Assembly: GCF_022669015.1 (NCBI RefSeq)
Contig: NZ_JAKKSL010000005.1
Location: 62,001-126,000, forward strand
DNA length: 64,000 nt
Direction of reading: 5' to 3'
Origin: Colwellia maritima
Lineage (GTDB): Bacteria; Pseudomonadota; Gammaproteobacteria; Enterobacterales; Alteromonadaceae
Shown: piece after piece, positions 47,643 through 64,000 of the stretch
Position numbering within the stretch: the stretch's first letter is position 1
How the letters are laid out: the number at the start of each line of letters is the position of its first letter
Made by a program: the position numbers and the translations under genes
The notes under the pieces: model-generated
The model's database searches: none
Seen by the model: the letters and a program-made list of their open reading frames with translations, nothing else
Told to the model about the DNA's origin: nothing

Positions 47643-48797
47643 ATGGGGTTATTATCTGACATATTAGCAAAAACCAAAAAGGCTTTTAGTAGTAAAAAAG
47701 TTGCGCAAAGCACAGAAGAGTGCCCGCTGAAAAAAACGGGTGTATTAGTCACAGTTGTTAAACAAGAAAACAACCAAACCATAGCCGATGCAACGGTTGA
47801 TATCAGTGGTAAAAGCCCTTTTACCAAAAAAAGTGATCCTGACGGCGTTGCACTATTCAAACCGGTAGAGCCTGACGATTACAAAATAGACATAACCCTA
47901 CCCGCAGCAATTAAAGATGATTATGATATTGTAGAAACACAATCACAGTCAGTACCGTTAGGCAGTTGTCCGATACATATTGTATTTGTTAAAAAACGAG
48001 CAAAACTCAAAGTTAAAGTATTTGAACAAACCGACACTACTCAATTTATTGGAAATGCAACGGTATCAATAGAAGGTACCGAAACATACCCCTCACAACA
48101 AACCGCAGAAACAGACGGCATAGCGGATTTTGGTAAAGTGAAGGCTGATACATACAAAATAACCGTCACGCTTTCCAGTGAAGACGCCAAAATTTACAGC
48201 GAGCCCAAAGCACAAACCATTACCTTACAACCTGCTGACGAAATAACCCAAGACATAGAAATCAAGAAAAAACGAGTTGCATTAAAACTCGTATTAACCA
48301 GTTGGGACTTTGCCACAGGTACAGATATACCAAAAGCCGGGCTTACTTGGGAAATGAAACAACCCGTAGCAAAAAGTGGTATTACCCAAGCTGATGGCAT
48401 TATTGATGTTGAAGTACCCGACGGCACTACCGCCGCCGATTTAGAAGTAGAATGGCGATCAGTTACACCTAAAGTTACCCAAGCCGTATCGTCACCTGTT
48501 GTTGTAGACGATTACCCGCAAAAAGTGCAACACGCACAATGGGAAGATGAATACACAGACAAAGTGATTCCAGACAGCGCTGACGATATTGCTAACTGGT
48601 CATTTACCGTTGTTCCACATGCCAGTATCGACAATGACGGTGGCGCAATAAAACGCTTACACAACCTAGGTTTTGACAGTAACGCAATAAGTACCGCCGT
48701 GCGCGCTTATCAATACTCATACCTTAAAAACGCAACAGGATCTGGCGTAATTGCAGACATAAAGCCAGACATTATTAAACGACATGACAACCCGTAA
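47643..48797 (+). CDS. Protein with repeated Ig-like (CnaB/SpaA-type) domains
   Basis: An intact 384-residue protein without signal peptide. Two related domains (about residues 35-110 and 118-200) share the pattern T-x-x-D-G-x-A-x-F-x-x-V-x-x-D-x-Y-K-I: DPDGVALFKPVEPDDYKIDI and ETDGIADFGKVKADTYKITV. A third similar region follows to about residue 285. The C-terminus (GAIKRLHNLGFDSNAISTAV) resembles peptidoglycan-binding helices. Absence of a signal with Ig-like repeats would fit cargo of a one-step secretion system. The metzincin gene starts 9 bases downstream. Confidence 0.6.
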   Translation: MGLLSDILAKTKKAFSSKKVAQSTEECPLKKTGVLVTVVKQENNQTIADATVDISGKSPFTKKSDPDGVALFKPVEPDDYKIDITLPAAIKDDYDIVETQSQSVPLGSCPIHIVFVKKRAKLKVKVFEQTDTTQFIGNATVSIEGTETYPSQQTAETDGIADFGKVKADTYKITVTLSSEDAKIYSEPKAQTITLQPADEITQDIEIKKKRVALKLVLTSWDFATGTDIPKAGLTWEMKQPVAKSGITQADGIIDVEVPDGTTAADLEVEWRSVTPKVTQAVSSPVVVDDYPQKVQHAQWEDEYTDKVIPDSADDIANWSFTVVPHASIDNDGGAIKRLHNLGFDSNAISTAVRAYQYSYLKNATGSGVIADIKPDIIKRHDNP

Positions 48798-48806
48798 GGC
48801 CAATCA

Positions 48807-51293
48807 ATGAAAATAGACTCAACTATTGCTATCACTGATGACGGCAAAACTAACCATAACAAATTACGATTGCCTGAATGGGAACTTACTGATTTATATT
48901 TAAAAACAGCAAGTAAACGCAGTAAGTGTTATCGGCCTGTTGATGCACCAATATCAAATACAGCAGCATTAGGCATTGACGAACTCAACTTCGCGCCCGA
49001 AAAAGAAGACATAGAAATACACTACGACATTAACGACCCTACGGCGCAAATTAAGAGCGGAAAACTTGAGCTTTTCTGTCGTTTTAACAAAAAACCGTTA
49101 TGGTCGATAGATCTAGAAAAATTAGGTGAAGAGTGGTTAAAACATGGTAAACATACCGTAAAGTGGGACGGTAGAATCATCAATAGCAACACCCCCATAA
49201 CAGGTAAAATAACAGATCACAACATTGAGCATAGCATCACCGGCCAAACTCCCGATCTTAACTATGACAAAGCAGCCTTTCCCGATGGTTTTATCACGTT
49301 AGAGCATACACCTTATAAATTACGATTAACCTTAACACCAAAAAACGCTAAAATAATCGGTAACCCTACTAGCAGTTGGACCTATTTTCATATTTTAATT
49401 AAAAAAATGGAAATTAAACTCGCAGAAGAAGCGATGATTCCTGCGGCAACGGTTGATGACAAAAGACACAAAATGGATAAAGCCCTCAGAACGGTAATAG
49501 AGACAGACGGCGGTGTACCCGCAACAGGGCAAACACGAAAAATTAACCTCATTAGCAACTTGTATAAAACCTCAAGTGCAGAAATGAATGATAATTCAGC
49601 GTTCAACCTCTACAAAACGCTTTGGGATGAAGGCGCACAAATTCCATTAATACTCGATGTTTACATTGCCGACTCAACAGGAGCCGAAGTTAAACTAGTT
49701 GACTCAACCAAAGGGGCTGTTGTCCTAGGTAACACTAAATTTTTATGGGATTGGGAAGACCCCACCGAAGATGTCGCAGGGCAACAAAATGCAACCTCAC
49801 CGTACGAAGCAAAACCAAAGGCATTTATAGAATCAGCAATAGACTATTACAAAGCGGGAACCGACACCACACGCGCCGCCGATGATCATACCTACCCCAA
49901 AGGCGATAACTGTCATGCAGACCGAGGAGGCAAGCGTGGGCCCGGCGCTAAATCTATCGCACCTGATCAAACCGGTTATGACCCAAAAGACACGCTTGAC
50001 GTGGGTAAATTTCCATTTAAAGTTGAAGCTTGCAAAAACCGAAAATGGGCAGCTTTTAGTTACGGGTGGAGTAAAGGCAAACTAAAAGGTCAAACCGGCA
50101 TTTTATTTCGTCCTAGCCGTATGGCCGGCGACAACTATAACTTAACGGTTTATTTAGCAAACGACGTATCCGCCAAAGACACCTGGGTATTAGATGATAA
50201 AACCGAGCCTTTACCGGCGTCACCAAAAATTAAAGTAAGCACAGGCACATGGCAAGTTTGGCGAGAAATGCACCTATCGCGATATGTCCGTAAAAAGAAC
50301 TCAATAGCAGCCTATTTACCCACTAATATTGGTGCTGTGCAAAGTATTTACGACGACGCTTACATCAGCGTAGTAGATAAAATTGACCCGACTAAAAACA
50401 ATTATGTTATTAATGACCACCGCAAAGCCGATGGTAACGCGGTTGACTATAACGCCTTAGCGGTTGCTAAAATCAATGCGGCAAATAACCCACATTTTGT
50501 TAACGACAGATGCATGGACAGATCTGCTGATCATGGTGCAGAAGATTCAGGTTTAAAAACGTATGCATACGACAAATTTGTGCAGAAACTACATTTATTT
50601 TTGCATCCCGGCATACCGGCCGCTGCAAACGACATATCGTCGATGGCGGCAGCAAATGGCATGTCAGTGACAGGTTTATCAGAAGCCATCGGTTCCGCTA
50701 ATTTTGGCCCACCGCCACATGCAGGGGCAATAGCAAGGTTAGTGGTAACAAAAAACTTTTTAGTTAATAACGACTTTGAACGCAACACAAAATACAGCCG
50801 TTGGTTAGACCGACAATGTTTTGGTGTATTAAGAGCCATGGTAGGTGATGGCGCTAACTTAGGTCTTATTTCTGGCGCTAAAACGGGTGAAACCCCTGGT
50901 GCCGACGATGGTGTAACTGTAGTACACTTCAACTATTCTAATACCTACTTAAGAGACTTAGTTGCCGCGGGTGTTGGCGTGGGAATGATTAACGGCGCAG
51001 CAATTGGCACCGATTCGCATCGTAAAGCCTGTGTATTCATTTTTACCAACGCCATGCTAGACACTTTCTGTCACGAAATTGGTCATCACATGTTTTTACC
51101 ACATGCCCGATACTCAACCAGTGCGTCTGTACCTGGCGGCGCACAACCTAACAGACATGACGACACCGACGCTAACTGCTTAATGAGTTATAACCGGCCA
51201 CGCCATGCATTTTGCGGACTATGCCAACTAAGACTACGAGGATGGGACGCCACAGCATTAAACAAAATCAGTGCAAGTAACAAAAAAACGTAA
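48807..51293 (+). CDS. Large protein with C-terminal metzincin-type protease motif
   Basis: An intact 828-residue protein, no signal peptide. Near residues 756-766 it has HEIGHHMFLPH, which fits HExxHxxxxxH zinc proteases, and a Met-turn-like CLMSY follows at about residue 791. The N-terminal region (KPLWSIDLEKLGEEWLKHGK, then FPDGFITLEHTPYKLRLTL) resembles domains of type VI effector proteins. Cys-rich patches occur near the protease end. It forms an operon with the genes at 47283, 47643 and 51343. The protease reading is from motifs; delivery by a secretion system is inference. Confidence 0.65.
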   Translation: MKIDSTIAITDDGKTNHNKLRLPEWELTDLYLKTASKRSKCYRPVDAPISNTAALGIDELNFAPEKEDIEIHYDINDPTAQIKSGKLELFCRFNKKPLWSIDLEKLGEEWLKHGKHTVKWDGRIINSNTPITGKITDHNIEHSITGQTPDLNYDKAAFPDGFITLEHTPYKLRLTLTPKNAKIIGNPTSSWTYFHILIKKMEIKLAEEAMIPAATVDDKRHKMDKALRTVIETDGGVPATGQTRKINLISNLYKTSSAEMNDNSAFNLYKTLWDEGAQIPLILDVYIADSTGAEVKLVDSTKGAVVLGNTKFLWDWEDPTEDVAGQQNATSPYEAKPKAFIESAIDYYKAGTDTTRAADDHTYPKGDNCHADRGGKRGPGAKSIAPDQTGYDPKDTLDVGKFPFKVEACKNRKWAAFSYGWSKGKLKGQTGILFRPSRMAGDNYNLTVYLANDVSAKDTWVLDDKTEPLPASPKIKVSTGTWQVWREMHLSRYVRKKNSIAAYLPTNIGAVQSIYDDAYISVVDKIDPTKNNYVINDHRKADGNAVDYNALAVAKINAANNPHFVNDRCMDRSADHGAEDSGLKTYAYDKFVQKLHLFLHPGIPAAANDISSMAAANGMSVTGLSEAIGSANFGPPPHAGAIARLVVTKNFLVNNDFERNTKYSRWLDRQCFGVLRAMVGDGANLGLISGAKTGETPGADDGVTVVHFNYSNTYLRDLVAAGVGVGMINGAAIGTDSHRKACVFIFTNAMLDTFCHEIGHHMFLPHARYSTSASVPGGAQPNRHDDTDANCLMSYNRPRHAFCGLCQLRLRGWDATALNKISASNKKT

Positions 51294-53133: not shown

Positions 53134-54081
53134 ATGCTCGCCATCATTCTATTTTCAGTCATCGTGCTTTATTTTTTCTACCGTGGCTACCGTCTCGGCT
53201 TAGGTTTAGTGCTTGCCCGGGTGGTAAGTGTTGTAGGAGCCTATTATCTAGCCGTAACATTTGCCGATAACGGTGCAGCAATAATTAGTGAAAATTCAGC
53301 GTTAGAAGGGCTTGTAGCTTACTTTATTGCCGGGTTTGTCATCTTTGTAGTTAGTTCAATCATCATCTCAATTATTCTACAAATAGCCTTGGGCGCACTG
53401 GGAAAAGCAACCGATGGCAAATCAAAATTACCGTTACTAGGTGGCTTTGCTAATGGTTTGCTAGGGGCTTTTGTGGGCTTAGCCTTAGTTTGGTTTTTCA
53501 ATATGGCAAACACCGCACTAACCAATGGCGAAATGCCAGAAGATAATCTCATCAATAATTGGTCACAAAAAATCATGGGAGACTCTATCGATACCGCATT
53601 ATCAATGCAATTTCCACAAGCACCGCAATTAGTAGGTATAGCCTCATATGTCTTAAAAAACCAAAGACGTGGTGTAAAAGACGGTATGACATTAGCTAAT
53701 GATCCTGATGTACAAACCCTAGTCAATAGCCGAAAAGTTCAACGCATGGTACAAAACAGAGATTTAATTGGCCTAATGACCGCCAAAGAAATTGACGACG
53801 TGCTTGAAGACAAAACAGTACAACGTATTTTAGAAGAAACCAATGTACTTGGAGACATCGATGTAACTGATAAAATTGCCGTTAAAACACGACTCACCCA
53901 AGAAGTCATGACCACACTCGTGCGGGTTGAAGTAATCAAGCAAAACCCACGTTTTAAACAACTAACTAACGACCCAGAGCTACAACGCATGATAAGAAAC
54001 AATGACGTTGTTGGTTTAATGAGTAGCCCAAAAGTGAAAGAAATTGCTGACATAGTAATGGACTCAGGCATCATTAAATAA
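53134..54081 (+). CDS. CvpA family membrane protein
   Basis: An intact 315-residue protein. Four membrane helices fill the first 135 residues, with the CvpA-like YRGYRLGLGLVLARVVSVVG. The C-terminal half is helical and contains two related blocks, DPDVQTLVNSRKVQRMVQNR and DPELQRMIRNNDVVGLMSSP. CvpA homologs support colicin V production and envelope homeostasis in enterobacteria. Here it precedes an ABC exporter by 45 bases, which suggests a linked export function (inference). Confidence 0.78.
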   Translation: MLAIILFSVIVLYFFYRGYRLGLGLVLARVVSVVGAYYLAVTFADNGAAIISENSALEGLVAYFIAGFVIFVVSSIIISIILQIALGALGKATDGKSKLPLLGGFANGLLGAFVGLALVWFFNMANTALTNGEMPEDNLINNWSQKIMGDSIDTALSMQFPQAPQLVGIASYVLKNQRRGVKDGMTLANDPDVQTLVNSRKVQRMVQNRDLIGLMTAKEIDDVLEDKTVQRILEETNVLGDIDVTDKIAVKTRLTQEVMTTLVRVEVIKQNPRFKQLTNDPELQRMIRNNDVVGLMSSPKVKEIADIVMDSGIIK

Positions 54082-54126: not shown

Positions 54127-55806
54127 ATGACCTTTTACCATTTTTTTAGTTTACTTAAAAACCACAAGCTACCGTTACTTGTTGCCATAGCCTTAATGGT
54201 AATTGAAAGTATCGTTAGCTTGTCTGTTCCTTGGTTTGCCGGTAAATTTTCAGAGTCAGTTCTCGATGGTAAAACCCTATTCAACCTCAGTTACATACAA
54301 ATAGCGCTACTATGGTTATCGCTGTTTGTGCTTCAGGCGCTATTACGGTTTTTATCAACCTACAAAGTTAACTTTATCGGAGCGCAAATGCTCACCGAAC
54401 TCAGTTGTCGTTTGTATGATCATATTCAATTATTACCCGTTAAATATTTCAGTAACACCAAAAAAGGCGAAACCCTTGCACTGTTAAGTAACGACGTTAG
54501 CATCATTAGTTATTTTCTCTCTGGCATACTCACTGGCCTTGTACCCGCCACCCTTATTTTACTTGGGGCACTTATTTTAATGGCGACAATAAACACCACT
54601 ATCACCTTAATAATAATGTTGATGGTGCCGGCATTTTTTGTGGTAGTAAAATTACTCGGTAAAGGTATTCGCCCAATTAGTGAAAATCTAGTACAAAGGC
54701 AAGCAGATGGTGTTGCCATTGCCAGTGAAAACTTAAGTATTATTAAGCTAGTAAAAGCCTTTTCAAGGGAAAAAAGCGAATCTAATCGGTTTAAAAGTAA
54801 CGCTCATGAAATTCAAAAGCTAAGAAAAAAACAACTAAAAATCCAAGCCATTTTATCGCCGGTGCTGCAATTACTTGTTTCTACAGGAGTGTTAGTGGTT
54901 GTAGTGGTGAGTGCCATGCACTATCAGTCGGGCAACTTAACCATGCCTGATTTAATCACCTTATTAATGTACGGTATGCTGTTCGCCAGACCCATGAGCA
55001 CGTTAGCTAATTTATACGGACAAACACAGCAAGCCCTGGGTTCGTCAAAACGGTTAAATAACGTATTCAACATTTCACCCGAGCCAAACAATCATGCTGA
55101 AGAAGACAATAGTGAAAACCAACTTCATGGCAATATCACTTTTAACAAAGTAGATTTTAGTTACGAACCAAACGAACCCTTGCTTAACGATATCAATATA
55201 ACTATTCAACCCAAGCAAAAAGTATTGATTTTAGGGCCAAATGGCACAGGAAAATCAACATTATTACACCTATTGGTAAGATTTATAGAGCCAACCTCGG
55301 GTGAAATAACCATAGGCGAACAGCCACTAAACCATTTTAGATTGTCAACCGTACGCAACAGTGTTGGGTTAGTCTCGCAAGACATCGCCTTATGCAGCGG
55401 TTCAATAGCCGACAACATTGCTTTTGGTTATCCACAAGCTAGTTTTGCTGAAATAGAAAACGCCGCTAAAAAAGCAGGTGCTCATTCGTTTATAACCGCA
55501 TTAGAAAATGGTTATAAAACCCAAGTAGGAGAAAATGGCGTGCTACTGTCTGGCGGACAAAGGCAACGTATATCATTAGCCAGAGCGTTAATGACCGAAC
55601 CGTCAATTTTATTACTAGACGAACCAACCTCAATGATTGATAGTGAAGCAAAAACTAGCTTTAAAGACAGCTTTAACGAGGTTTTAAAACATAAAACTGT
55701 TATTATGGTTAGCCATGAACATCACTTGGTTGATATAGCTGATCATGTGTATGAAATGAAAAATCATCAATTAGTCGCGGTTAATCCAAAAGAAAATTGT
55801 GAATAA
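54127..55806 (+). CDS. ABC exporter, fused permease and ATPase
   Basis: An intact 559-residue type I half-transporter. Six membrane helices lie in residues 1-300. The ATPase domain has Walker A GPNGTGKST, signature LSGGQRQRISLARAL, Walker B ILLLDEPT and the switch His in VSHEHH. There is no N-terminal peptidase domain. Next to the PqqD-like and B2-like genes it could export a modified peptide, as lasso-type transporters do. Confidence 0.9.
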   Translation: MTFYHFFSLLKNHKLPLLVAIALMVIESIVSLSVPWFAGKFSESVLDGKTLFNLSYIQIALLWLSLFVLQALLRFLSTYKVNFIGAQMLTELSCRLYDHIQLLPVKYFSNTKKGETLALLSNDVSIISYFLSGILTGLVPATLILLGALILMATINTTITLIIMLMVPAFFVVVKLLGKGIRPISENLVQRQADGVAIASENLSIIKLVKAFSREKSESNRFKSNAHEIQKLRKKQLKIQAILSPVLQLLVSTGVLVVVVVSAMHYQSGNLTMPDLITLLMYGMLFARPMSTLANLYGQTQQALGSSKRLNNVFNISPEPNNHAEEDNSENQLHGNITFNKVDFSYEPNEPLLNDINITIQPKQKVLILGPNGTGKSTLLHLLVRFIEPTSGEITIGEQPLNHFRLSTVRNSVGLVSQDIALCSGSIADNIAFGYPQASFAEIENAAKKAGAHSFITALENGYKTQVGENGVLLSGGQRQRISLARALMTEPSILLLDEPTSMIDSEAKTSFKDSFNEVLKHKTVIMVSHEHHLVDIADHVYEMKNHQLVAVNPKENCE

Positions 55807-55848: not shown

Positions 55849-56130
55849 ATGAGCGAAGTTAGCTACCAATTGGCCGAAAATGTGCTTTTTCAAAAAGTAG
55901 CAGATGAAACCGTAATACTTGAACCAAATACAGGCGAATATTTCACGCTTAATGCTATTGGTACTTTTATGGTAGAGCTTTTTCAAGCAGGGCATACCCA
56001 AACCGAAGTGATCAATGCCGTACTTGAAAAATACCAAGCAGAGCAAGCAGAAGTTACCCAAGACATTAACGAGTTAGTAACACAAATGCTCAAACAAGGT
56101 TTATTAATCATTGCTGAGCCGCAATCATAA
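55849..56130 (+). CDS. PqqD family protein (RiPP recognition element)
   Basis: An intact 93-residue protein with the PqqD fold (VADETVILEPNTGEYFTLNA, then GTFMVELFQAG and a winged-helix end). In RiPP pathways such proteins bind the leader peptide and present it to the modifying enzyme. It follows the exporter gene by 42 bases and is followed by a lasso-type B2 protein. Confidence 0.85.
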   Translation: MSEVSYQLAENVLFQKVADETVILEPNTGEYFTLNAIGTFMVELFQAGHTQTEVINAVLEKYQAEQAEVTQDINELVTQMLKQGLLIIAEPQS

Positions 56131-56186
56131 ATTCACATGTTTATGTAATGTAGGGTTGGACTTCAGTCCGCCAAAAATGTTTAATC

Positions 56187-56297
56187 ACTTCTCGGTGAAG
56201 TGCGAAGCACCTCGGTGTACTCTGTGGTGAAAAATGTAGGTTGGGCTTTAGCCCAACAAGGGGCAATAAATTACCCCCTACAAGGGGCTAAACAACG
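56187..56297. repeat. Interspersed repeats between pqqD-like and B2 genes
   Basis: A partial copy of the CTCGGTG element (56187-56230) is followed by the palindromic element GGTTGGGCTTTAGCCCAAC with GGGGCAATAAATTACCCC (56235-56297). The second element recurs at 57070 and 61867. The insertion may have separated the two RiPP-like genes from a tighter operon. Confidence 0.8.
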
Positions 56298-56319
56298 TTA
56301 AGGAACCCGCACGTTTATC

Positions 56320-56823
56320 ATGTCTGTATTCACAAAACTATTCTCACTGTCTAAAACTGAGTTAAGTATTTTACTTGAAGCATGGTGGGTGTTTTTAAAG
56401 TGGGATTGGTTAATTTCATTTACACAATACAGTAATTGGCAAAACAATTGGCAAAACAATTGGCAAAACGAAATCGCAAACCTGTCAGGCACAAATAATA
56501 GTGTTATTCCTGACAATAAACAGGCAGACAAAACATCGTTAGCGCAAGTTGCGTTAGTGATCCAACTTAGTGAAAAAGTCGCTCGTCATCACCTTCGTAA
56601 AATGAACTGCCTACGCCGCTGCTTAACGCAAAAACAAATACTTAAAAAACGCGGTTACCCAACACAAATGCACATTGGCGTCGCCATCAACAATGAAAAG
56701 CTCAAAGCCCACGCCTGGTTAACCTACCAAGGTAAAATTATCAACGACAGTAATGACGTAACAACACGTTACAGTGAATTAAAAGCGCAAAACCAACACG
56801 CGATCCTACAAAGCTTTAAATAA
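56320..56823 (+). CDS. Lasso-peptide B2-like leader peptidase
   Basis: An intact 167-residue protein of the transglutaminase-like B2 family that removes leader peptides in lasso pathways. The expected catalytic set is seen: Cys97 in NCLRRCLTQKQILKKRG, His131 in KAHAWLTYQG and Asp143 in IINDSND. A 12-bp DNA repeat gives NWQNNWQNNWQN near residue 39, an unusual insertion. The nearest ribosome-site-like AAGGA is 15 bases from the ATG, so translation may be weak or the start may differ. No lasso cyclase (asparagine synthetase-like) or precursor gene is visible. Confidence 0.75.
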   Translation: MSVFTKLFSLSKTELSILLEAWWVFLKWDWLISFTQYSNWQNNWQNNWQNEIANLSGTNNSVIPDNKQADKTSLAQVALVIQLSEKVARHHLRKMNCLRRCLTQKQILKKRGYPTQMHIGVAINNEKLKAHAWLTYQGKIINDSNDVTTRYSELKAQNQHAILQSFK

Positions 56824-56826
56824 TAC

Positions 56827-56855
56827 CAGTTTCATTAATCAAGTGATCTATTTTA
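56827..56855 (+). repeat. Dispersed short repeat, copy 3
   Basis: CAGTTTCATTAATCAAGTGA and the following TCTATTTTA match the repeats at 46289 and 47219. Confidence 0.65.
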
Positions 56856-56912
56856 AACAAGTAGAAACGTTCACACAGCGGCGGTTAAATTGTTTTTAAA
56901 GATAAAAGATTA

Positions 56913-57063
56913 TTCACCACCGAGAACACAGAGACGCTTCGCTACACAGAGAAGAGATAAGAAAAGGTCAGAAGAGATAGTGATCAGGGATTTAAGAAGT
57001 TTTTTATCTTTGTTTTAATGTCTTCTCAGTGAAGGCCTAAGGCCCTCGGTGCTCTCGGTGGTC
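56913..57063. repeat. Interspersed CACCGAG element, copy A
   Basis: It begins TTCACCACCGAGAACACAGA and ends CTCGGTGCTCTCGGTGGTC, so its ends are imperfect inverted repeats. The interior differs from the other copies. Related copies lie at 60546, 60739 and 61694. The right part (from about 57008) is also the left edge of the 4.8-kb tandem duplication. No coding frame is present in 56824-57280. Confidence 0.8.
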
Positions 57064-57069
57064 AAAAAA

Positions 57070-57131
57070 TGTAGGTTGGGCTTTAGCCCAACAAGGGGCA
57101 ATAAATTACCCCTACAATGGGCTAAACAACG
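57070..57131. repeat. Palindromic GGTTGGGC element
   Basis: Contains two palindromic arms, GGTTGGGCTTTAGCCCAAC and GGGGCAATAAATTACCCC. Copies lie at 56235 and 61867. Confidence 0.8.
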
Positions 57132-57280
57132 CGTTCATCACTAACCTTTACAGAATCGTTATAGATTGTCTAATTTACTAAATGCTTTAAAAAAACCAAC
57201 TCCAAACTTCAGAAAATCAATAATTTACTTCCTTTGTTTTATCAGATAATATCGCTTTAAATATTCAGCAAGGATAGCCA

Positions 57281-57931
57281 ATGAATAACCGCAGAAAAAT
57301 CGCGTCACTTTCTCGCCCTCATTTTACATTGTTATTACTAATTTTGTGCTTACTTGCTTACCCTATGATAAGTCAAGGAGTAGATATGTTTGGTTGGTTT
57401 AAAAAACAAGACGTATTTTTATGTTCAGAAGTCAACGGCGTGGTAACTGAAAATGGGAAACCTGTTGCCAATATAGAAATTACTCGCTCATTAATGTATA
57501 TCGATGCAAAAGATCATATTGATGTTGCCATTACTGATGATACTGGTCATTTTCATTTCCCGCAAAAGAGCATTCGCTCATCCATTCCCAGTAAACCGTT
57601 TTCTGAAGATAGGGTATCGCAACAAATTACTATTAACCGCGAAGGCACGCTTATTCTGTTATGGGGAGCAACTCATGTGGGGATTACGGAAATACCTGAA
57701 TTTTACAAAAAATTGGCTTTTTTAAATTGTGAGTTGAGCAATAAGCGAGCTGATTTTCAATTTAAAAATAATATCCCTAGTAATCGTGAACATATGGCTT
57801 CTAGCATTTGCCGTTGGGATGACGATTACATGCCTTTCTGGCTTTATGATGGTGAAAAAGAATACCGTATACATGACGGTGATTTTAATAAACTAACTGA
57901 ACAATATACAGGGAAGAAGGTTAAACTATGA
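57281..57931 (+). CDS. DUF6795-like exported protein, copy 1
   Basis: 216 residues with a signal anchor (about residues 14-32) and a domain of beta-sandwich type (CSEVNGVVTENGKPVANIEI), which I read as DUF6795-like. The C-terminal half has ICRWDDDYMPFWLYDGEKEY. A ribosome site AAGGA sits 8 bases before the ATG in a leader shared by all four copies. Its stop overlaps the next ATG (ATGA). A possible immunity or partner protein of the lipase toxin in this array. Confidence 0.7.
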   Translation: MNNRRKIASLSRPHFTLLLLILCLLAYPMISQGVDMFGWFKKQDVFLCSEVNGVVTENGKPVANIEITRSLMYIDAKDHIDVAITDDTGHFHFPQKSIRSSIPSKPFSEDRVSQQITINREGTLILLWGATHVGITEIPEFYKKLAFLNCELSNKRADFQFKNNIPSNREHMASSICRWDDDYMPFWLYDGEKEYRIHDGDFNKLTEQYTGKKVKL

Positions 57932-58245
57932 CATACGATAATTTAGCACAAGGTTTTATTCTTCAATTTACCGTAGTACCATTTTGTGCTGTTGCTTTTT
58001 TTGTATTAACAATTATGATCACAAGTAAATATTTTACTTCATATTTTGTTGTCGACATTCTTATGAACGTTGGTATTTTTACGTTTCCACTCTCGTGGTT
58101 CATAAGTGTTTTTATGATTTACAGCTCCCATATACCAAGTAAAGACACCTATAATCTACTATGGCATGGGTTTCCTTTTGCCGTCGTTTTTACCGCCTCT
58201 ATATTAGTGGGGATTTATATAAAAATTATTAAAAAAGTCTCCTAA
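57928..58245 (+). CDS. Small membrane protein, copy 1
   Basis: 105 residues with three predicted membrane helices (FILQFTVVPFCAVAFFVLTI, a second near residue 45 and a third near residue 82). It overlaps the stop of the DUF6795-like gene by 4 bases and is therefore translationally coupled. Copy 2 at 62726 is nearly identical. I do not recognise a family. Confidence 0.75.
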   Translation: MTYDNLAQGFILQFTVVPFCAVAFFVLTIMITSKYFTSYFVVDILMNVGIFTFPLSWFISVFMIYSSHIPSKDTYNLLWHGFPFAVVFTASILVGIYIKIIKKVS

Positions 58246-58461
58246 ACCTTAATTTTAATATTAGAAACAATAAATATATAATCCTCTTTAAGCTAAGTAA
58301 AATATTATTGCGGTTAGTTGTTAATATAGCAGGGGGAGTTATTACTCTGCAATTAAAGCGCAATTTAGATTGAAAATACGAGTGATACATTGCGTAAGTA
58401 GGTATTTACTTTTTCAACTCTAACAGATAATATCGCTTTAAATATTCAGCAAGGATAGCCA

Positions 58462-59112
58462 ATGAATAACCGCAGAAAAATCGCGTCACTTTCTCGCCCT
58501 CATTTTACATTGTTATTTCTAATTTTGTGCTTACTTGCTTACCCTATGATAAGTCAAGGAGTAGATATGTTTGGTTGGTTTAAAAAACAAGACGTATTTT
58601 TATGTTCAGAAGTCAACGGCGTGGTAACTGAAAATGGGAAACCCGTTGCCAATATAGAAATTACTCGCTCATTAATGTATATCGATGCAAAAGATCATAT
58701 TGATGTTGCCATTACTGATGATACTGGTCATTTTCATTTCCCGCAAAAGAGCATTCGCTCATCCATTCCCAGTAAACCGTTTTCTGAAGATAGGGTATCG
58801 CAACAAATTACTATTAACCGCGAAGGCACGCTCATTCCATTATGGATCGCAACTCATGTGGGTATTACGGAAATACCTGAATTCACTAAAAAACTGGCTT
58901 TTTTAAATTGTGAGTTAAGCAATAAACGAGTCAGTTTTCAGTTTAAAAATAGCAACCCAAATAATAGAGAATACCAAGCCTCTAGCGTATGTCGGTGGGA
59001 TGAAGACTACCTGCCTTTTTTACTTTACGATGGGGACAATCAGTATATCGTTGAAAATGGGGATTTTAATACACTAACGGATCGTTTTACAGGAAAGGAA
59101 GTCAAACTATGA
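58462..59112 (+). CDS. DUF6795-like exported protein, copy 2
   Basis: 216 residues. The first half is almost identical to copy 1, but the region from about residue 125 differs: IPLWIATHVG, then ASSVCRWDEDYLPFLLYDGD. The leader with AAGGA before the ATG is identical to that of copy 1. Its stop overlaps the lipase ATG (ATGA), so it is coupled to the toxin-like gene rather than to the small membrane protein. Confidence 0.72.
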   Translation: MNNRRKIASLSRPHFTLLFLILCLLAYPMISQGVDMFGWFKKQDVFLCSEVNGVVTENGKPVANIEITRSLMYIDAKDHIDVAITDDTGHFHFPQKSIRSSIPSKPFSEDRVSQQITINREGTLIPLWIATHVGITEIPEFTKKLAFLNCELSNKRVSFQFKNSNPNNREYQASSVCRWDEDYLPFLLYDGDNQYIVENGDFNTLTDRFTGKEVKL

Positions 59113-60257
59113 ATAAAACAATATCCTTGACACAGCAGCAAGTGTTGCTGATAGAGTCTATGATATAAGAAAGTCACAAGGTTTTGCCGATGAATTTCAT
59201 CTTGATTTTATACGTAATTTTAAAATCACCAACAGCCAAATACAAGGAATCAGCGGCGGTCTAGTTAATCAGTTGCTTAACCGCAGTACGGGCTTTGCTT
59301 TAACGGCAGAGGGTACTTCCCCACAATTTTTAAATCACCATATTATCGGTATTCGTGGCACTAAATTTTCTTCATTTGCTGATTGGTTAACTAACCTCAA
59401 TGTAGCCGTTACCCTTGGCCCTAAAAACCTTGAGGTACATTCAGGCTTTCAAAAAGCCTTCAGCAGTATGCGCCCAAGACATTTAATCAATATATAGCAA
59501 AGCACAACCCCAGTTGTTTGCATGTAATAGGTCATAGCTTAGGCGGTGCCATTGCTGAGTTAACTGCTATTTGGGCAAGTGCACGTGGTATTAAAACTAA
59601 GCTTTATACCTTTGGCGCACCACGCGTGGTGCTTACAAACTCTATTCACAGTGCAGCGATGAATGTTGACCATTATCGGGTAACCCATGGTGCTGACCCT
59701 GTGCCTTGTGTACCTGTTTGGCCATTTACTCATACCGTAGGTGAATATCAAACCGCGATGAATGGGGGATCTTTTTTTGCTCTTTCTGCACACTCAATGG
59801 CGAAGTCGGCACCTGGTTATGTTAACACTGTCAATGCCTATAAAGATTACCGAAGTATGGATAGCGCACTTAAAACACTGCACTATAAACACACCGTGCT
59901 TAAATATGAGCAGCGCCATAACGCGTCATTTTCGCAGCGCCGGCAACAAATTATTACCGATGCGTTAATCACACTCTTAAAGAAAAGCGGACAGTATGCA
60001 CTTATTCCGGGCAAGCTGCAGCGAGTGTTGGCTTGTCCTTTTATGATGTACTAGCACGTTGTTTACATGAGTCTATTGTAAGAATTCCTGATGCAGAAGA
60101 AGCATTAAGGGGACTATTAGGACATATGCTTGTATTTGTAGGTAAAGGGGCGCAAGCGGTTAAGGAAATGACGGTTAAGTTTATTCGTTGGGTATTAGGC
60201 TTGATGATAAAAACGTTATATACCACAGCAAAACAAGCGATTGATCGTATATTTTAA
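59109..60257 (+). pseudogene. Class 3 lipase, copy 1, frameshifted
   Basis: A lipase of about 382 residues when bridged. It starts MNKTIS and soon shifts frame (near 59130) to VADRVYDIRKSQGFADEFHL. It continues HHIIGIRGTKFSSFADWL and VIGHSLGGAIAELTA (nucleophile Ser in GHSLGG), then GADPVPCVPVWPFTH and a helical C-terminus. Further breaks lie near 59470 and 60020. Three breaks in 1.1 kb, against none in the preceding 12 kb, suggest real inactivation, but errors cannot be excluded. Lipase_3 enzymes are known antibacterial effectors of type VI systems (Tle2 group). Confidence 0.7.
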
Positions 60258-60341
60258 TCCTAGAAATAATTGTTCAATTTACTCTTCAATACATACTCGC
60301 TGAATAGTCGTTGGTTAGGTACCAAACCAACGGCTGTTTTT

Positions 60342-60533
60342 ACCAGAAAAGCCTTAAGCGAATTTGTTAATGGAAAAGTTAAATGTTCGCACGCTATGGC
60401 AAGGCGTTTATCCGAAGCTACAGGAACAGGCGTTGCAATATGGATCAATATGCAAGCAAAATTGGATACGTGGGAAGCGGAGAATATGGAATTACTTGGT
60501 GATCCTATCGTACCTTTACCCCTACAAGCGTAA
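60342..60533 (+). pseudogene. Truncated HigA antitoxin copy
   Basis: The last 64 residues of HigA (TRKALSEFVNGKVKCSHAMA to VPLPLQA) are repeated here almost exactly as in the intact gene at 61384, offset by 1147 bases. The first third of the antitoxin and the toxin gene are missing. It is followed by a CACCGAG repeat, as is the intact copy. Confidence 0.85.
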
Positions 60534-60545
60534 TAAACCTAACTT

Positions 60546-60712
60546 ATTCACCACCGAGAACACTGAGACAGGTTCTATGCTCCTGCAGAACCTAAGTGAC
60601 CTACATCCATGTAGGCCTCGCTACGCTACACAGAGAAAAGATAAGAAAAATAAATACTTTGTTTTAATATCTTCTCGGTGAGGCCGAAGGCCCTCGGTGC
60701 CCTCTGTGGTCA
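60546..60712. repeat. Interspersed CACCGAG element, copy B
   Basis: About 167 bases, beginning CACCACCGAGAACACTGAGA and ending in CTCGGTGCCCTCTGTGGTCA. It includes the internal palindrome CCTACATCCATGTAGG. It directly follows the HigA remnant. Confidence 0.82.
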
Positions 60713-60738
60713 AACTGTTTTTTAAAGATAAAAGATTA

Positions 60739-60903
60739 TTCACCACCGAGAACACAGAGACAGGTTCTATGCTCCTGCAGAACCTAAGTGACCTACATCC
60801 ATGTAGGCCTCGCTTCGCTACACAGAGAAATGATAAGAAAAATAAATTCTTTGTTTTAATATCTTCTCGGTGAGGCCGAAGGCTCTCGGTGCTCTCTGTG
60901 GTC
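60739..60903. repeat. Interspersed CACCGAG element, copy C
   Basis: A second element in the same orientation 26 bases after copy B, nearly identical to it. Both lie in the 523-bp gap 60534-61056 before higB, which shows no gene. Confidence 0.82.
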
Positions 60904-61056
60904 AAATTGTTTTGTTTTTAGTTCAATTAATTTGTGAAATGCTTTGATTATAGTATTTCGTAACGTGATGGGTTGCAGTAAAACTACTTTTAATATAATC
61001 TAATACGTATCTAATAACGTAAATTAACACTTGTACTGGAATGCGAGGTAAATTGT

Positions 61057-61362
61057 TTGGCGATTAAAAGCTTCACTCACAAAGGACTGAAAAAATTCTT
61101 TTATAAAGGTGACTCAAGTGGGCTTGCACCGCATCATGTTCAAACAATTAGCTTTATTTTAGATGCTATTGACTCATCGCATCACCCTAGAGACTTAAAA
61201 GCAATTTACCAATACAAGTTTAATGAAAAACAAGGGTCAGGGAAGGGCGTATATAGCATAGAAGTTAATGGGAATTGGCGGATCACATTTCAGATAGATG
61301 ACGATGGGGCTATTTTATTGGATTACCGTGATTACCACGGGAAAAATATTAAGGCTAAATAA
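61057..61362 (+). CDS. higB: HigB-type toxin (RelE/ParE superfamily)
   Basis: A 101-residue protein with the HigB pattern KSFTHKGLKKFFYKGDSSGL, HPRDLKAIYQYKFNE, GVYSIEVNGNWRITF. Family members are mRNA interferases that cleave ribosome-bound mRNA. The start is TTG with GAGGT 7 bases before it, and no in-frame ATG lies near. The antitoxin gene starts 21 bases downstream, the usual toxin-first order of higBA. Confidence 0.87.
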   Translation: MAIKSFTHKGLKKFFYKGDSSGLAPHHVQTISFILDAIDSSHHPRDLKAIYQYKFNEKQGSGKGVYSIEVNGNWRITFQIDDDGAILLDYRDYHGKNIKAK

Positions 61363-61383
61363 AAATTTCTTTAGGAGTTGAAA

Positions 61384-61680
61384 ATGACCCAAACTAGAAA
61401 ACCTTCTCACCCTGGAGAGTTTTTCAAATTTACTATTCTCAATGAAAGAGGTATTTCAATCACCTCAGCTGCGAAAAGTTTAGGTATAACCAGAAAAGCC
61501 TTAAGCGAATTTGTTAATGGAAAAGTTAAATGTTCGCACGCAATGGCAAGGCGTTTATCCGAAGCTACAGGAACAGGCGTTGCAATATGGATCAATATGC
61601 AAGCAAAACTCGATACGTGGGAAGCGGAGAATATGGAATTACTTGGTGATCCTATCGTACCTTTACCCCTACAAGCGTAA
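61384..61680 (+). CDS. higA: HigA-type antitoxin
   Basis: A 98-residue protein with an XRE-type helix-turn-helix (ISITSAAKSLGITRKALSEF, then HAMARRLSEATGTGVAIW) typical of HigA. The ATG at 61384 has AGGAG before it. It should neutralise HigB and repress the operon. A truncated copy of its 3' part lies at 60342. The module sits between CACCGAG elements B/C and D. Confidence 0.88.
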   Translation: MTQTRKPSHPGEFFKFTILNERGISITSAAKSLGITRKALSEFVNGKVKCSHAMARRLSEATGTGVAIWINMQAKLDTWEAENMELLGDPIVPLPLQA

Positions 61681-61693
61681 TAAACCCATCCTA

Positions 61694-61860
61694 TTCACCA
61701 CCGAGAACACAGAGGCAGGTTCTATGCTCCTACAGAACCTAAGTGACCTACATCCATGTAGGCCTCGCTACGCTACACAGAGAAAAGATAAGAAAAAATA
61801 AGCTCTTTGTTTTAATGTCTTCTCAGTGAAGGCCTAAGGCCCTCGGTGCTCTCGGTGGTC
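61694..61860. repeat. Interspersed CACCGAG element, copy D
   Basis: Nearly identical to copies B and C in its left part. Its right part, from about 61805, matches copy A at 57008 and continues into the second unit of the 4.8-kb duplication. This makes it the likely recombination junction. Confidence 0.82.
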
Positions 61861-61866
61861 AAAAAA

Positions 61867-61929
61867 TGTAGGTTGGGCTTTAGCCCAACAAGGGGCAATA
61901 AATTACCCCCTACAATGGGCTAAACAACG
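61867..61929. repeat. Palindromic GGTTGGGC element, copy 3
   Basis: Same two palindromes as at 57070, one base longer in the C-run. It belongs to the second unit of the tandem duplication. No gene is visible in 61861-62078. Confidence 0.8.
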
Positions 61930-62078
61930 CGTTCATCACTAACCTTTACAGAATCGTTATAGATTGTCTAATTTACTAAATGCTTTAAAAAAACCAACTC
62001 CCAACTTCAGAAAATCAATAATTTACTTCCTTTGTTTTATCAGATAATATCGCTTTAAATATTCAGCAAGGATAGCCA

Positions 62079-62729
62079 ATGAATAACCGCAGAAAAATCG
62101 CGTCACTTTCTCGCCCTCATTTTACATTGTTATTTCTAATTTTGTGCTTACTTGCTTACCCTATGATAAGTCAAGGAGTAGATATGTTTGGTTGGTTTAA
62201 AAAACAAGACGTATTTTTATGTTCAGAAGTCAACGGCGTGGTAACTGAAAATGGGAAACCCGTTGCCAATATAGAAATTACTCGCTCATTAATGTATATC
62301 GATGCAAAAGATCATATTGATGTTGCCATTACTGATGATACTGGTCATTTTCATTTCCCGCAAAAGAGCATTCGCTCATCCATTCCCAGTAAACCGTTTT
62401 CTGAAGATAGGGTATCGCAACAAATTACTATTAACCGCGAAGGCACGCTCATTCCATTATGGATAGCAACTCATGTGGGTATTACGGAAATACCTGAATT
62501 CACTAAAAAACTGGCTTTTTTAAATTGTGAGTTGAGCAATAAGCGAGCTGATTTTCAATTTAAAAATAATATCCCTAGTAATCGTGAACATATGGCTTCT
62601 AGCATTTGCCGTTGGGATGACGATTACATGCCTTTCTGGCTTTATGATGGTGAAAAAGAATACCGTATACATGACGGTGATTTTAATAAACTAACTGAAC
62701 AATATACAGGGAAGAAGGTTAAACTATGA
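62079..62729 (+). CDS. DUF6795-like exported protein, copy 3 (mosaic)
   Basis: 216 residues. The N-terminal two thirds (LFLILCLL; IPLWIATHVGITEIPEFTKK) follow copy 2. The C-terminal third (RADFQFKNNIPSNREHMASS and PFWLYDGEKEYR) follows copy 1. This mosaic shows recombination within the gene. It sits exactly 4798 bases from copy 1, with the same leader, and overlaps the small membrane protein gene by ATGA. Confidence 0.72.
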   Translation: MNNRRKIASLSRPHFTLLFLILCLLAYPMISQGVDMFGWFKKQDVFLCSEVNGVVTENGKPVANIEITRSLMYIDAKDHIDVAITDDTGHFHFPQKSIRSSIPSKPFSEDRVSQQITINREGTLIPLWIATHVGITEIPEFTKKLAFLNCELSNKRADFQFKNNIPSNREHMASSICRWDDDYMPFWLYDGEKEYRIHDGDFNKLTEQYTGKKVKL

Positions 62730-63043
62730 CATACGATAATTTAGCACAAGGTTTTATTCTTCAATTTACCGTAGTACCATTTTGTGCTGTTGCTTTTTTT
62801 GTATTAACAATTATGATCACAAGTAAATATTTTACTTCATATTTTGTTGTCGACATTCTGATGAACGTTGGTATTTTTACGTTTCCACTCTCGTGGTTCA
62901 TAAGTGTTTTTATGATTTACAGCTCCCATATACCAAGTAAAGACACCTATAATCTACTATGGCATGGGTTTCCTTTTGCCGTCGTTTTTACCGCCTCTAT
63001 ATTAGTGGGGATTTATATAAAAATTATTAAAAAAGTCTCCTAA
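62726..63043 (+). CDS. Small membrane protein, copy 2
   Basis: 105 residues, identical in protein sequence to copy 1 at 57928, with at least one silent difference (base 62860 region). Three membrane helices. Coupled by ATGA overlap to the DUF6795-like copy 3. Confidence 0.75.
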   Translation: MTYDNLAQGFILQFTVVPFCAVAFFVLTIMITSKYFTSYFVVDILMNVGIFTFPLSWFISVFMIYSSHIPSKDTYNLLWHGFPFAVVFTASILVGIYIKIIKKVS

Positions 63044-63259
63044 ACCTTAATTTTAATATTAGAAACAATAAATATATAATCCTCTTTAAGCTAAGTAAAA
63101 TATTATTGCGGTTAGTTGTTAATATAGCAGGGGGAGTTATTACTCTGCAATTAAAGCGCAATTTAGATTGAAAATACGAGTGATACATTGCGTAAGTAGG
63201 TATTTACTTTTTCAACTCTAACAGATAATATCGCTTTAAATATTCAGCAAGGATAGCCA

Positions 63260-63913
63260 ATGAATAACCGCAGAAAAATCGCGTCACTTTCTCGCCCTCA
63301 TTTTACATTGTTATTACTAATTTTGTGCTTACTTGCTTACCCTATGATAAGTCAAGGAGTAGATATGTTTGGTTGGTTTAAAAAACAAGACGTATTTTTA
63401 TGTTCAGAAGTAAACGGCGTGGTAACTGAAAATGGGAAACCCGTTGCCAATATAGAAATCACTCGCTCATTGATTTATACCGATGAAAAAATACATCGTG
63501 ATATTGCCATTACGGATAACACTGGGCATTTTTATTTTCCCCAAAAGAGCATTCGTTCATCCATTCCAAGTAAACCATTTGCCGTTAATAGAGTGTCTCA
63601 AGAAATATTTATTGATCGCAAAGGTACGCTTGTTCCATTTTGGGTCGCTACTCATGTTGGCATTAAAGAAATGCCTGAATTTACCAAAAAATTGGCTTTT
63701 TTGAACTGTGAATTAACCAATCAACGAGTGAGTTTTCAATTTCAAAATAATCACAATGAACACCTTGATCATATGGCGTCTAGTATCTGTCGTTGGGATG
63801 AAGATTATATCCCTATATGGCTTTTTGAAGGTAATGAAAAAAAATACGAAATTCACGATGGTGACTTTAATAAATTAACAGAACGTTTTACAAACAAGGA
63901 AGTTAAACTATGA
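63260..63913 (+). CDS. DUF6795-like exported protein, copy 4 (most divergent)
   Basis: 217 residues. The first 71 residues equal copy 1, but after that it diverges strongly (IYTDEKIHRDIAITDNTGHF; VPFWVATHVGIKEMPEFTKK; EDYIPIWLFEGNEKKYEIHD). Conserved Cys positions and the ICRWDED core are kept. Its stop overlaps the start of a second lipase gene, which parallels copy 2 with lipase 1. Confidence 0.72.
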   Translation: MNNRRKIASLSRPHFTLLLLILCLLAYPMISQGVDMFGWFKKQDVFLCSEVNGVVTENGKPVANIEITRSLIYTDEKIHRDIAITDNTGHFYFPQKSIRSSIPSKPFAVNRVSQEIFIDRKGTLVPFWVATHVGIKEMPEFTKKLAFLNCELTNQRVSFQFQNNHNEHLDHMASSICRWDEDYIPIWLFEGNEKKYEIHDGDFNKLTERFTNKEVKL

Positions 63914-64000
63914 ATAAAACAATAACACCAAGTACCGCGGCAAGTGTTGCTGATAGAGTCTATGATATAAGAAAGTCAAAAGGTTTTGCCGATGAATTTC
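63910..64000 (+). CDS. Class 3 lipase, copy 2, cut by window end
   Basis: The first 30 codons read MNKTITPSTAASVADRVYDI and RKSKGFADEF in one open frame. The same region in copy 1 is frameshifted. Overlap with the preceding stop (ATGA) indicates coupling. The rest lies outside the window. Confidence 0.65.
   Translation, partial: MNKTITPSTAASVADRVYDIRKSKGFADEF

Follow-up and report, generated by a model that had tools for sequence, protein, structure and literature searches.

A lasso-peptide locus with a near-invariant core and an adjoining PEP-CTERM gene in Colwellia maritima and its relatives

We analysed a stretch of 64,000 nucleotides of Colwellia maritima (the window), which corresponds to bases 62001-126000 of contig C5 in a genome of 5.2 Mb. 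Table 1 lists the features of a locus that begins in the window and runs on past its right edge. The continuation was taken from L008 (C5:126001-145000), where an L008 position plus 64000 gives the extrapolated window coordinate.

Table 1. Features of the locus in the window and in the adjoining sequence L008
Feature	Position	Strand	Profile match or remark
D: ABC exporter, 559 aa	window 54127..55806	+	PF00664, PF00005
B1: PqqD-type leader recognition element, 93 aa	window 55849..56130	+	PF05402, 58.5 bits (cut-off 23.4)
Palindromic-repeat stretch between B1 and B2, taken as insertion	window 56131..56319	.	29-nt repeat
B2: leader peptidase, 167 aa	window 56320..56823	+	PF13471, NF033537
Stretch between B2 and cyclase, window part, outside the pathway	window 56824..64000	.	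DUF6795 genes, apparently broken Lipase_3 frames, HigB/HTH pair; runs on to L008 2321
C: cyclase, 634 aa	L008 2322-4226	minus	NF033535, PF00733
PEP-CTERM protein	L008 4598-5323, likely start about 4655	plus	TIGR02595, PF07589
A: precursor, 55 aa	L008 5329-5496	plus	leader NF033521
K: HprK-like kinase	L008 5579-6598	plus	
AbiEi/AbiEii pair, inserted	L008 6706-8243		
W: WcaJ-type sugar transferase gene, cut short	L008 8317-9566 (window coordinates 72317-73566)	plus	broken into two frames
N: nucleotidyltransferase	L008 9855-10973	plus	NTP_transf_5

An earlier note on this DNA, made from the letters alone, had described an exporter, a PqqD-like protein and a B2-type peptidase standing in a row. 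All three genes are present as described, with matches to the expected profiles. The profile searches proposed there for the two small proteins recovered PqqD for B1 and Transglut_core3 for B2 (PF13471, 63 bits, cut-off 26), and B2 also scored 57.2 bits against the lasso_biosyn_B2 model NF033537 (cut-off 33). The best NCBIfam lasso model for B1 gave 58.9 bits, which is under that model's cut-off of 70. At E ≤ 0.001 B1 and B2 are the sole PqqD and Transglut_core3 matches genome-wide. The residues Cys97, His131 and Asp143 of B2 are unchanged in 22 of 22 aligned B2 sequences, the window's B2 included. A solved-structure search with B2 returned no usable match (best E 0.79, a dehydrogenase). The order of exporter, recognition element and protease had been called unusual, but D-B1-B2 turned out to be the normal order in the loci of the family. 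Immediately ahead of D the window encodes a CvpA protein (53134-54081; PF02674, 36.1 bits, cut-off 29.3). We rejected it as a part of the system, as no CvpA-like frame was seen ahead of D when the ORF lists of two congeners, G014 and G015, were inspected by eye. Further upstream, at window 47643-51293, a protein with a weak carboxypeptidase-regulatory-like match precedes one of 828 aa that matches Reprolysin weakly; none of these matches reaches the cut-off.

A search of the whole genome for a lasso cyclase and a short precursor, as the earlier note had advised, located both on contig C5. The cyclase frame lies 2.3-4.2 kb past the right edge of the window (Asn_synthase match at C5:128400-129503) and the precursor lies 5.3 kb past it. 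The reported absence of these two genes is literally true within the window, but both are present on the same contig and their apparent lack is an effect of where the window ends. The cyclase scored 113 bits against PF00733 (Asn_synthase), over the cut-off, and 226 bits against NF033535, a lasso cyclase model whose cut-off of 525 it does not reach; its solved-structure matches are an amidotransferase and asparagine synthetase B. The other Asn_synthase matches of the genome are one of 20.7 bits on contig C1 and two pieces on C2, and we take the C2 pair for an ordinary asparagine synthetase. The precursor has a leader ending in ...YTKPVLKNAGSLAELTQ and the core GFSGSIPDEQGGHTKRNPFQG; against NF033521 its leader scored 24.6 bits, above the cut-off of 19. 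With a full-length lasso-type cyclase and such a precursor in the genome, the lasso reading of the trio is upheld and the suggestion of a different peptide-maturation system falls away. A reduced lasso locus, also suggested, was rejected in view of the cyclase and precursor on the same contig. The note had further envisaged an ordinary lasso locus with both genes just outside the window in one operon. Both genes are indeed just outside, but by strand the genes of the window genome form three units: D-B1-B2, the cyclase on the opposite strand, and PEP-CTERM, precursor and kinase. A real two-locus case is present in G889, a genome of another order, in which PEP, A, K and W stand together and are separated on the same contig from D-B1-B2 by about 25 kb and from C by about 35 kb.

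The congener G014 has the gene order D-B1-B2, the cyclase tail-to-tail at a distance of 33 nt, PEP-CTERM, A, K, W and N, with a Wzz-type gene near the locus. Both G014 and G015 carry orthologous loci without the inserts of the window genome. B2 and the cyclase are about 9.5 kb apart in the window genome compared to these 33 nt, and because of this difference we conclude that the locus is a complete lasso-peptide pathway which has been pushed apart by inserts and is not reduced. Inserts separate B2 from C and K from W; the latter two genes are about 1.7 kb apart. The palindromic repeats that had been noticed before the protease gene are real: a 29-nt stretch occurs at 56236, 57071 and 61868, i.e. 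three times in the window compared to 0 expected copies. Since B1 and B2 have overlapping frames in both congeners, we regard the repeat before B2 as an insertion in the window genome. The DUF6795, lipase, HigB/HTH, Fic and AbiE genes are absent at these places in G014 and G015 and were rejected as parts of the pathway. They include a repeat array at window 57223-63913 with four DUF6795 copies (93-99% alike over 300 nt; spacing 1181, 3617 and 1181 nt) and with broken-looking Lipase_3 frames and the HigB/HTH pair in between. The array continues past the window with a further Lipase_3 frame and the Fic gene and may be an effector/immunity or defence island.

The B2-cyclase junction was measured in 19 relatives (18 of the 23 loci introduced below and G1128) and is shorter than 100 nt or overlapping in 12 of them. 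Among the seven longer junctions, that of G015 holds a YhaV/PrlF pair, those of three genomes of one genus an IS200-like transposase with repeats (identified by profile in one and by eye in the others) and that of G267 RelBE-like and polysaccharide genes (by eye); the junctions of G272 and G278 are longer without any named gene. The junction of the convergent B2 and cyclase genes is thus a recurrent insertion site (L016 7381-8839, L043 7742-8849, L045 7206-9003, L054 10252-16590). Could the locus of the window genome nevertheless be reduced or degrading, with peptide production lost? The two wide gaps and the broken WcaJ-type gene would be in line with this, and the latter may reflect local decay of the pathway or frameshifts of the assembly. 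However, the frames of D, B1, B2, C, PEP, A, K and N are full-length, no gene is split by the large insert, whose neighbours are convergent, and the broken-looking lipase frames could likewise be an assembly error. We consider a loss of production very unlikely.

To describe the distribution in relatives we used the cyclase within the genus and the family. In the genus 6 of 39 genomes matched at 1e-20. The matches were strong in the window genome, G014 and G015 (59-100% identity) and weak in G029, G007 and G001 (24-31%), which were not counted as orthologues. In the family the cyclase matched in 22 of 395 genomes at 1e-60, from 8 of 52 genera. These 22 and G015 give 23 cyclase loci, the window's own included, some of which stop at contig ends. 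Using tblastn we detected PEP and A in all 23 loci, K in 21 (missing from 2), B2 and W in 20 each and D in 18. N was clear in 7 loci, with one more weak match (G057), and is missing from 15. D and B1 matches are neighbours in 18 loci; in all 23, the precursor and a PEP-type gene are on the strand opposite the cyclase. While the family count rests on the cyclase, the counts for order (2/394 genomes), class (4/369) and phylum (6/344) rest on the precursor profile and on evenly drawn genomes, each draw including the window genome. Outside the family the core was found only in G889 and in G1128, which is one of 2 matches among the 11 genomes of its family. The matches in G987 and G793 (class) and in four genomes of the phylum search are weak (E 8.8e-6 to 8.7e-4) and mainly cover the leader part (model positions 4-42 of 54); inspection by eye suggests that G987 and G793 have lasso-type loci of another kind. 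The plasmid search gave two matches of 30% identity or less. A different lasso-type locus was seen by eye in another family (L068 7622-9761), with an NTP_transf_5-like gene, a PqqD-like protein and two precursor-like frames; no PEP-CTERM gene was noticed there up to the contig end about 270 nt further. Multi-member genera were kept monophyletic in 4 of 6 cases in the cyclase trees, 3 of 6 in the PEP trees and 3 of 5 in the K trees; either the trees are weak or descent within genera accounts for only part of the inheritance. The alignments contain partial frames for W of the window genome, for D of G889 (cut at the edge of the stretch taken) and for C of G1128 (in-frame TAA).

We then compared the precursors with the other proteins of the locus. 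Lasso precursors are characterized by a YxxPxL-type leader, a penultimate Thr, a core that starts with Gly and an Asp or Glu at positions 7-9, and all of these features were observed. In the precursor alignment A1 the Tyr and Pro, the Thr at −2, Gly1, Asp8 and Glu9 are invariant in 26 sequences, and the NF033521 leader was matched in 26 of 26 precursors at E ≤ 0.01. Lasso cores are usually regarded as variable. The core set comprises 28 precursors, 26 from the 23 loci and those of G889 and G1128 of another order. Their 21-residue cores reduce to 14 distinct sequences with a mean pairwise identity of 0.890; for the last 19 leader residues the value is 0.652. For the proteins we obtained the following means: 0.614 for W, 0.488 for D, 0.419 for K, 0.408 for C, 0.394 for B1, 0.384 for N (pulled down by the weak match in G057), 0.379 for PEP and 0.349 for B2. 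Invariant in all 28 cores are Gly1, Gly4, Ser5, Pro7, Asp8, Glu9, Gly11, Gly12, Lys15, Arg16, Asn17, Pro18, Phe19 and Gly21. At identical core residues 51% of the codon pairs differ synonymously, and therefore the conservation is one of the protein and not the result of recent copying. We also computed the best window of 21 columns for each protein. It stays below the core for D (0.841), C (0.775), B1 (0.671), K (0.651), B2 (0.582) and PEP (0.553), whereas W reaches 0.920 and 13 of its 447 windows reach 0.89 and are as conserved as the core.

The second characteristic of these loci is the gene ahead of the precursor. In the window genome the product matches TIGR02595 and PF07589 over the cut-off, and the proteins encoded ahead of the precursors share a homologous domain of about 150 residues (alignment A2, 25 members). 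Pfam and NCBIfam have no model for this domain; each library gave one weak match in 1 of the 25 members. The proteins show a signal-like N-terminal stretch, a hydrophobic C-terminal helix and a basic tail, and by eye the tails of several relatives read PAP, SAP or SEP and not PEP. A PEP-type gene lies directly upstream of 28 out of 30 precursors, a set that includes G025 and the second contig of G272. The two exceptions are both extra copies: G373b follows a masked N stretch, which was left out of the PEP alignments, and G272b has no PEP-like frame upstream. From the PEP stop to the precursor start we counted −41 to 30 nt (26 pairs). G272 has an extra PEP-A pair on another contig and G373 has two pairs. 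Two genomes carry three precursor copies each, some with their own PEP-CTERM-type gene (L049 4014-6833; L050 13287-14123; L115 9382-10189), and one PEP-precursor pair is on a different contig from the lasso enzymes. The PEP-domain profile matched 30 of 395 family genomes, among them every one of the 22 cyclase carriers. Another of the 30 is G025, which has PEP, A, K and W at a contig end. In 6 of the 30 genomes the PEP domain occurs without a nearby precursor, twice next to a W-type gene, and in G170 the contig ends right after the PEP gene; for G079 and G117 the loci examined span about 3.4 kb. Precursors lacking a PEP gene are thus very rare, whereas PEP genes do occur without a precursor. 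The exosortase PF09721 was found in the window genome with a partial match over the cut-off (positions 2-225 of 254), and an exosortase is present in 23 of 25 carrier genomes scanned compared to 18 of 18 congeners without a cyclase match; none was found in the carrier G176 (99% complete). Sorting is possible in most carriers, but exosortase is no marker of them.

One explanation for these patterns is an ordinary antibacterial lasso peptide with a conserved target, for which the PEP-CTERM protein would serve as surface immunity or as a decoy capturing the peptide. Many studied lasso peptides are antibacterial, the exporter adjoins B1 in most of the loci, and the PEP homologues without a nearby precursor, together with that of G170 at its contig edge, could be orphan immunity genes. 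However, an arms race would predict diversification, and none was seen in the core over 10 genera and two orders. The WcaJ-type polysaccharide gene that follows in 20 of 23 loci also argues against it, and we consider this explanation unlikely. The near-invariant core, the exporter and the adjoining polysaccharide genes would also suit a signalling lasso peptide, an autoinducer controlling exopolysaccharide production, with a PEP-CTERM protein that is co-expressed and does not bind it. In the ORF lists of three loci we noticed no sensor or receptor gene, and the lone PEP-A pair on another contig of G272 better fits a physical pair; we regard a signal as quite improbable.

For the tailoring genes we observed that the K residues H130, K151, D168 and D169 are invariant in 23 of 23 sequences. 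Going by the alignment to the HPr kinase 3tqf (a weak match, E 0.9), they would correspond to the published His-Lys-Asp-Asp motif. All 28 cores end in Gly and none has a paeninodin-type C-terminal Ser, which is why Ser5 (28/28 cores) or Thr14 (27/28) appear to be the best candidate sites of modification; position 3 is Ala in 17 of the 28.

Taking these results together, we think it somewhat better than an even bet that the locus encodes a complete lasso pathway for a conserved, non-diversifying peptide that acts with the PEP-CTERM protein encoded upstream, at the cell surface or in the exopolysaccharide matrix. This reading builds on the genes themselves, on B2 and K with their catalytic residues intact, on the little-changed core and on the gene pairing; its chemical steps follow the analogy of known families. 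B1 would bind the leader of the precursor at the motif YTKPVL and B2 would cleave the leader after ...LTQ. The cyclase would then join Gly1 to Asp8 (or Glu9) of the 21-residue core so that the predicted ring traps the tail, and D would export the lasso product. K, plus N where present, would probably put a phosphate and then a sugar on a conserved hydroxyl, Ser5 or Thr14. The peptide would be made together with the PEP-CTERM surface protein; the pairing of the two genes, including the extra PEP-A pairs of G272 and G373, is what suggests export by D and joint action at the surface. More speculatively, and on balance unlikely, the predicted lasso knot could be a fixed part of the surface that is phosphorylated by K, receives a sugar from N or the WcaJ-type transferase and is bound by its own PEP-CTERM protein, and would anchor or prime extracellular polysaccharide and not act as a diffusible antibiotic.

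Few lasso peptides have been assigned a native role, and little is known of what exosortase cargo does. A near-fixed core whose enzymes have drifted to about 40% identity, almost always preceded by a surface gene of one family, is well suited to testing whether such a peptide has a housekeeping role. The conserved peptide and the adjoining surface-protein gene hint at structure or signalling and not at an ever-changing antibiotic. The partnership, if true, would tie exosortase sorting to a ribosomal peptide, and with a precursor this short, one PEP-CTERM partner and few genes, knock-out and binding experiments are straightforward.

A full-text literature search, with supplements and most subscription papers outside its scope, returned no paper on the pairing of a lasso precursor with a PEP-CTERM protein, and the core strings NPFQG and PDEQGG gave no full-text match. 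In the literature searched we found no description of a lasso family that combines a near-fixed core with a paired PEP-CTERM protein. The paeninodin/pseudomycoidin-type clusters, as far as the available parts of PMC9266682 describe them, share with the present loci the split B1/B2, the cyclase, an HprK-like kinase with His-Lys-Asp-Asp and, in some loci, a nucleotidyltransferase. There the C-terminal Ser, reported as extremely conserved, is phosphorylated by PadeK, and the addition of hexose to it requires PsmN, whereas the cores here end in Gly; the near-invariant core and the PEP-CTERM gene beside the precursor are features of the present loci that are absent from those parts. The Bacilli lasso clusters in capsular polysaccharide loci and the linear polyphosphorylated peptides (LPPs) share an RRE, an HprK-like kinase, an NTP transferase and an MsbA-like exporter with our loci, and their leader motif [Y/W]xxPx[L/V/I/F/A] resembles the leaders here (PMC13381572, in the sections available). 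According to the same sections the LPPs have no cyclase, an SpI-type peptidase and highly variable C termini, in contrast to the cyclase, the B2 and the near-fixed core found here, and LppK phosphorylates Ser3 of the core in this polysaccharide-locus family, a position taken by Ala in most of our cores. By its description the PEP protein can be likened to PepA of Aquincola, a PEP-CTERM protein of floc formation that is thought to be part of the extracellular matrix and affects bound and soluble polysaccharide; the portion of PMC9850573 available mentions no lasso peptide. With PEP-CTERM/EpsH (exosortase) sorting, as presented in the accessible part of PMC1569441, it shares the signal-like N-terminus, the C-terminal hydrophobic helix with a basic tail and the occurrence of an exosortase in nearly all carriers, but it differs in having a scarcely modelled domain of ~150 residues and in being paired with a lasso precursor.
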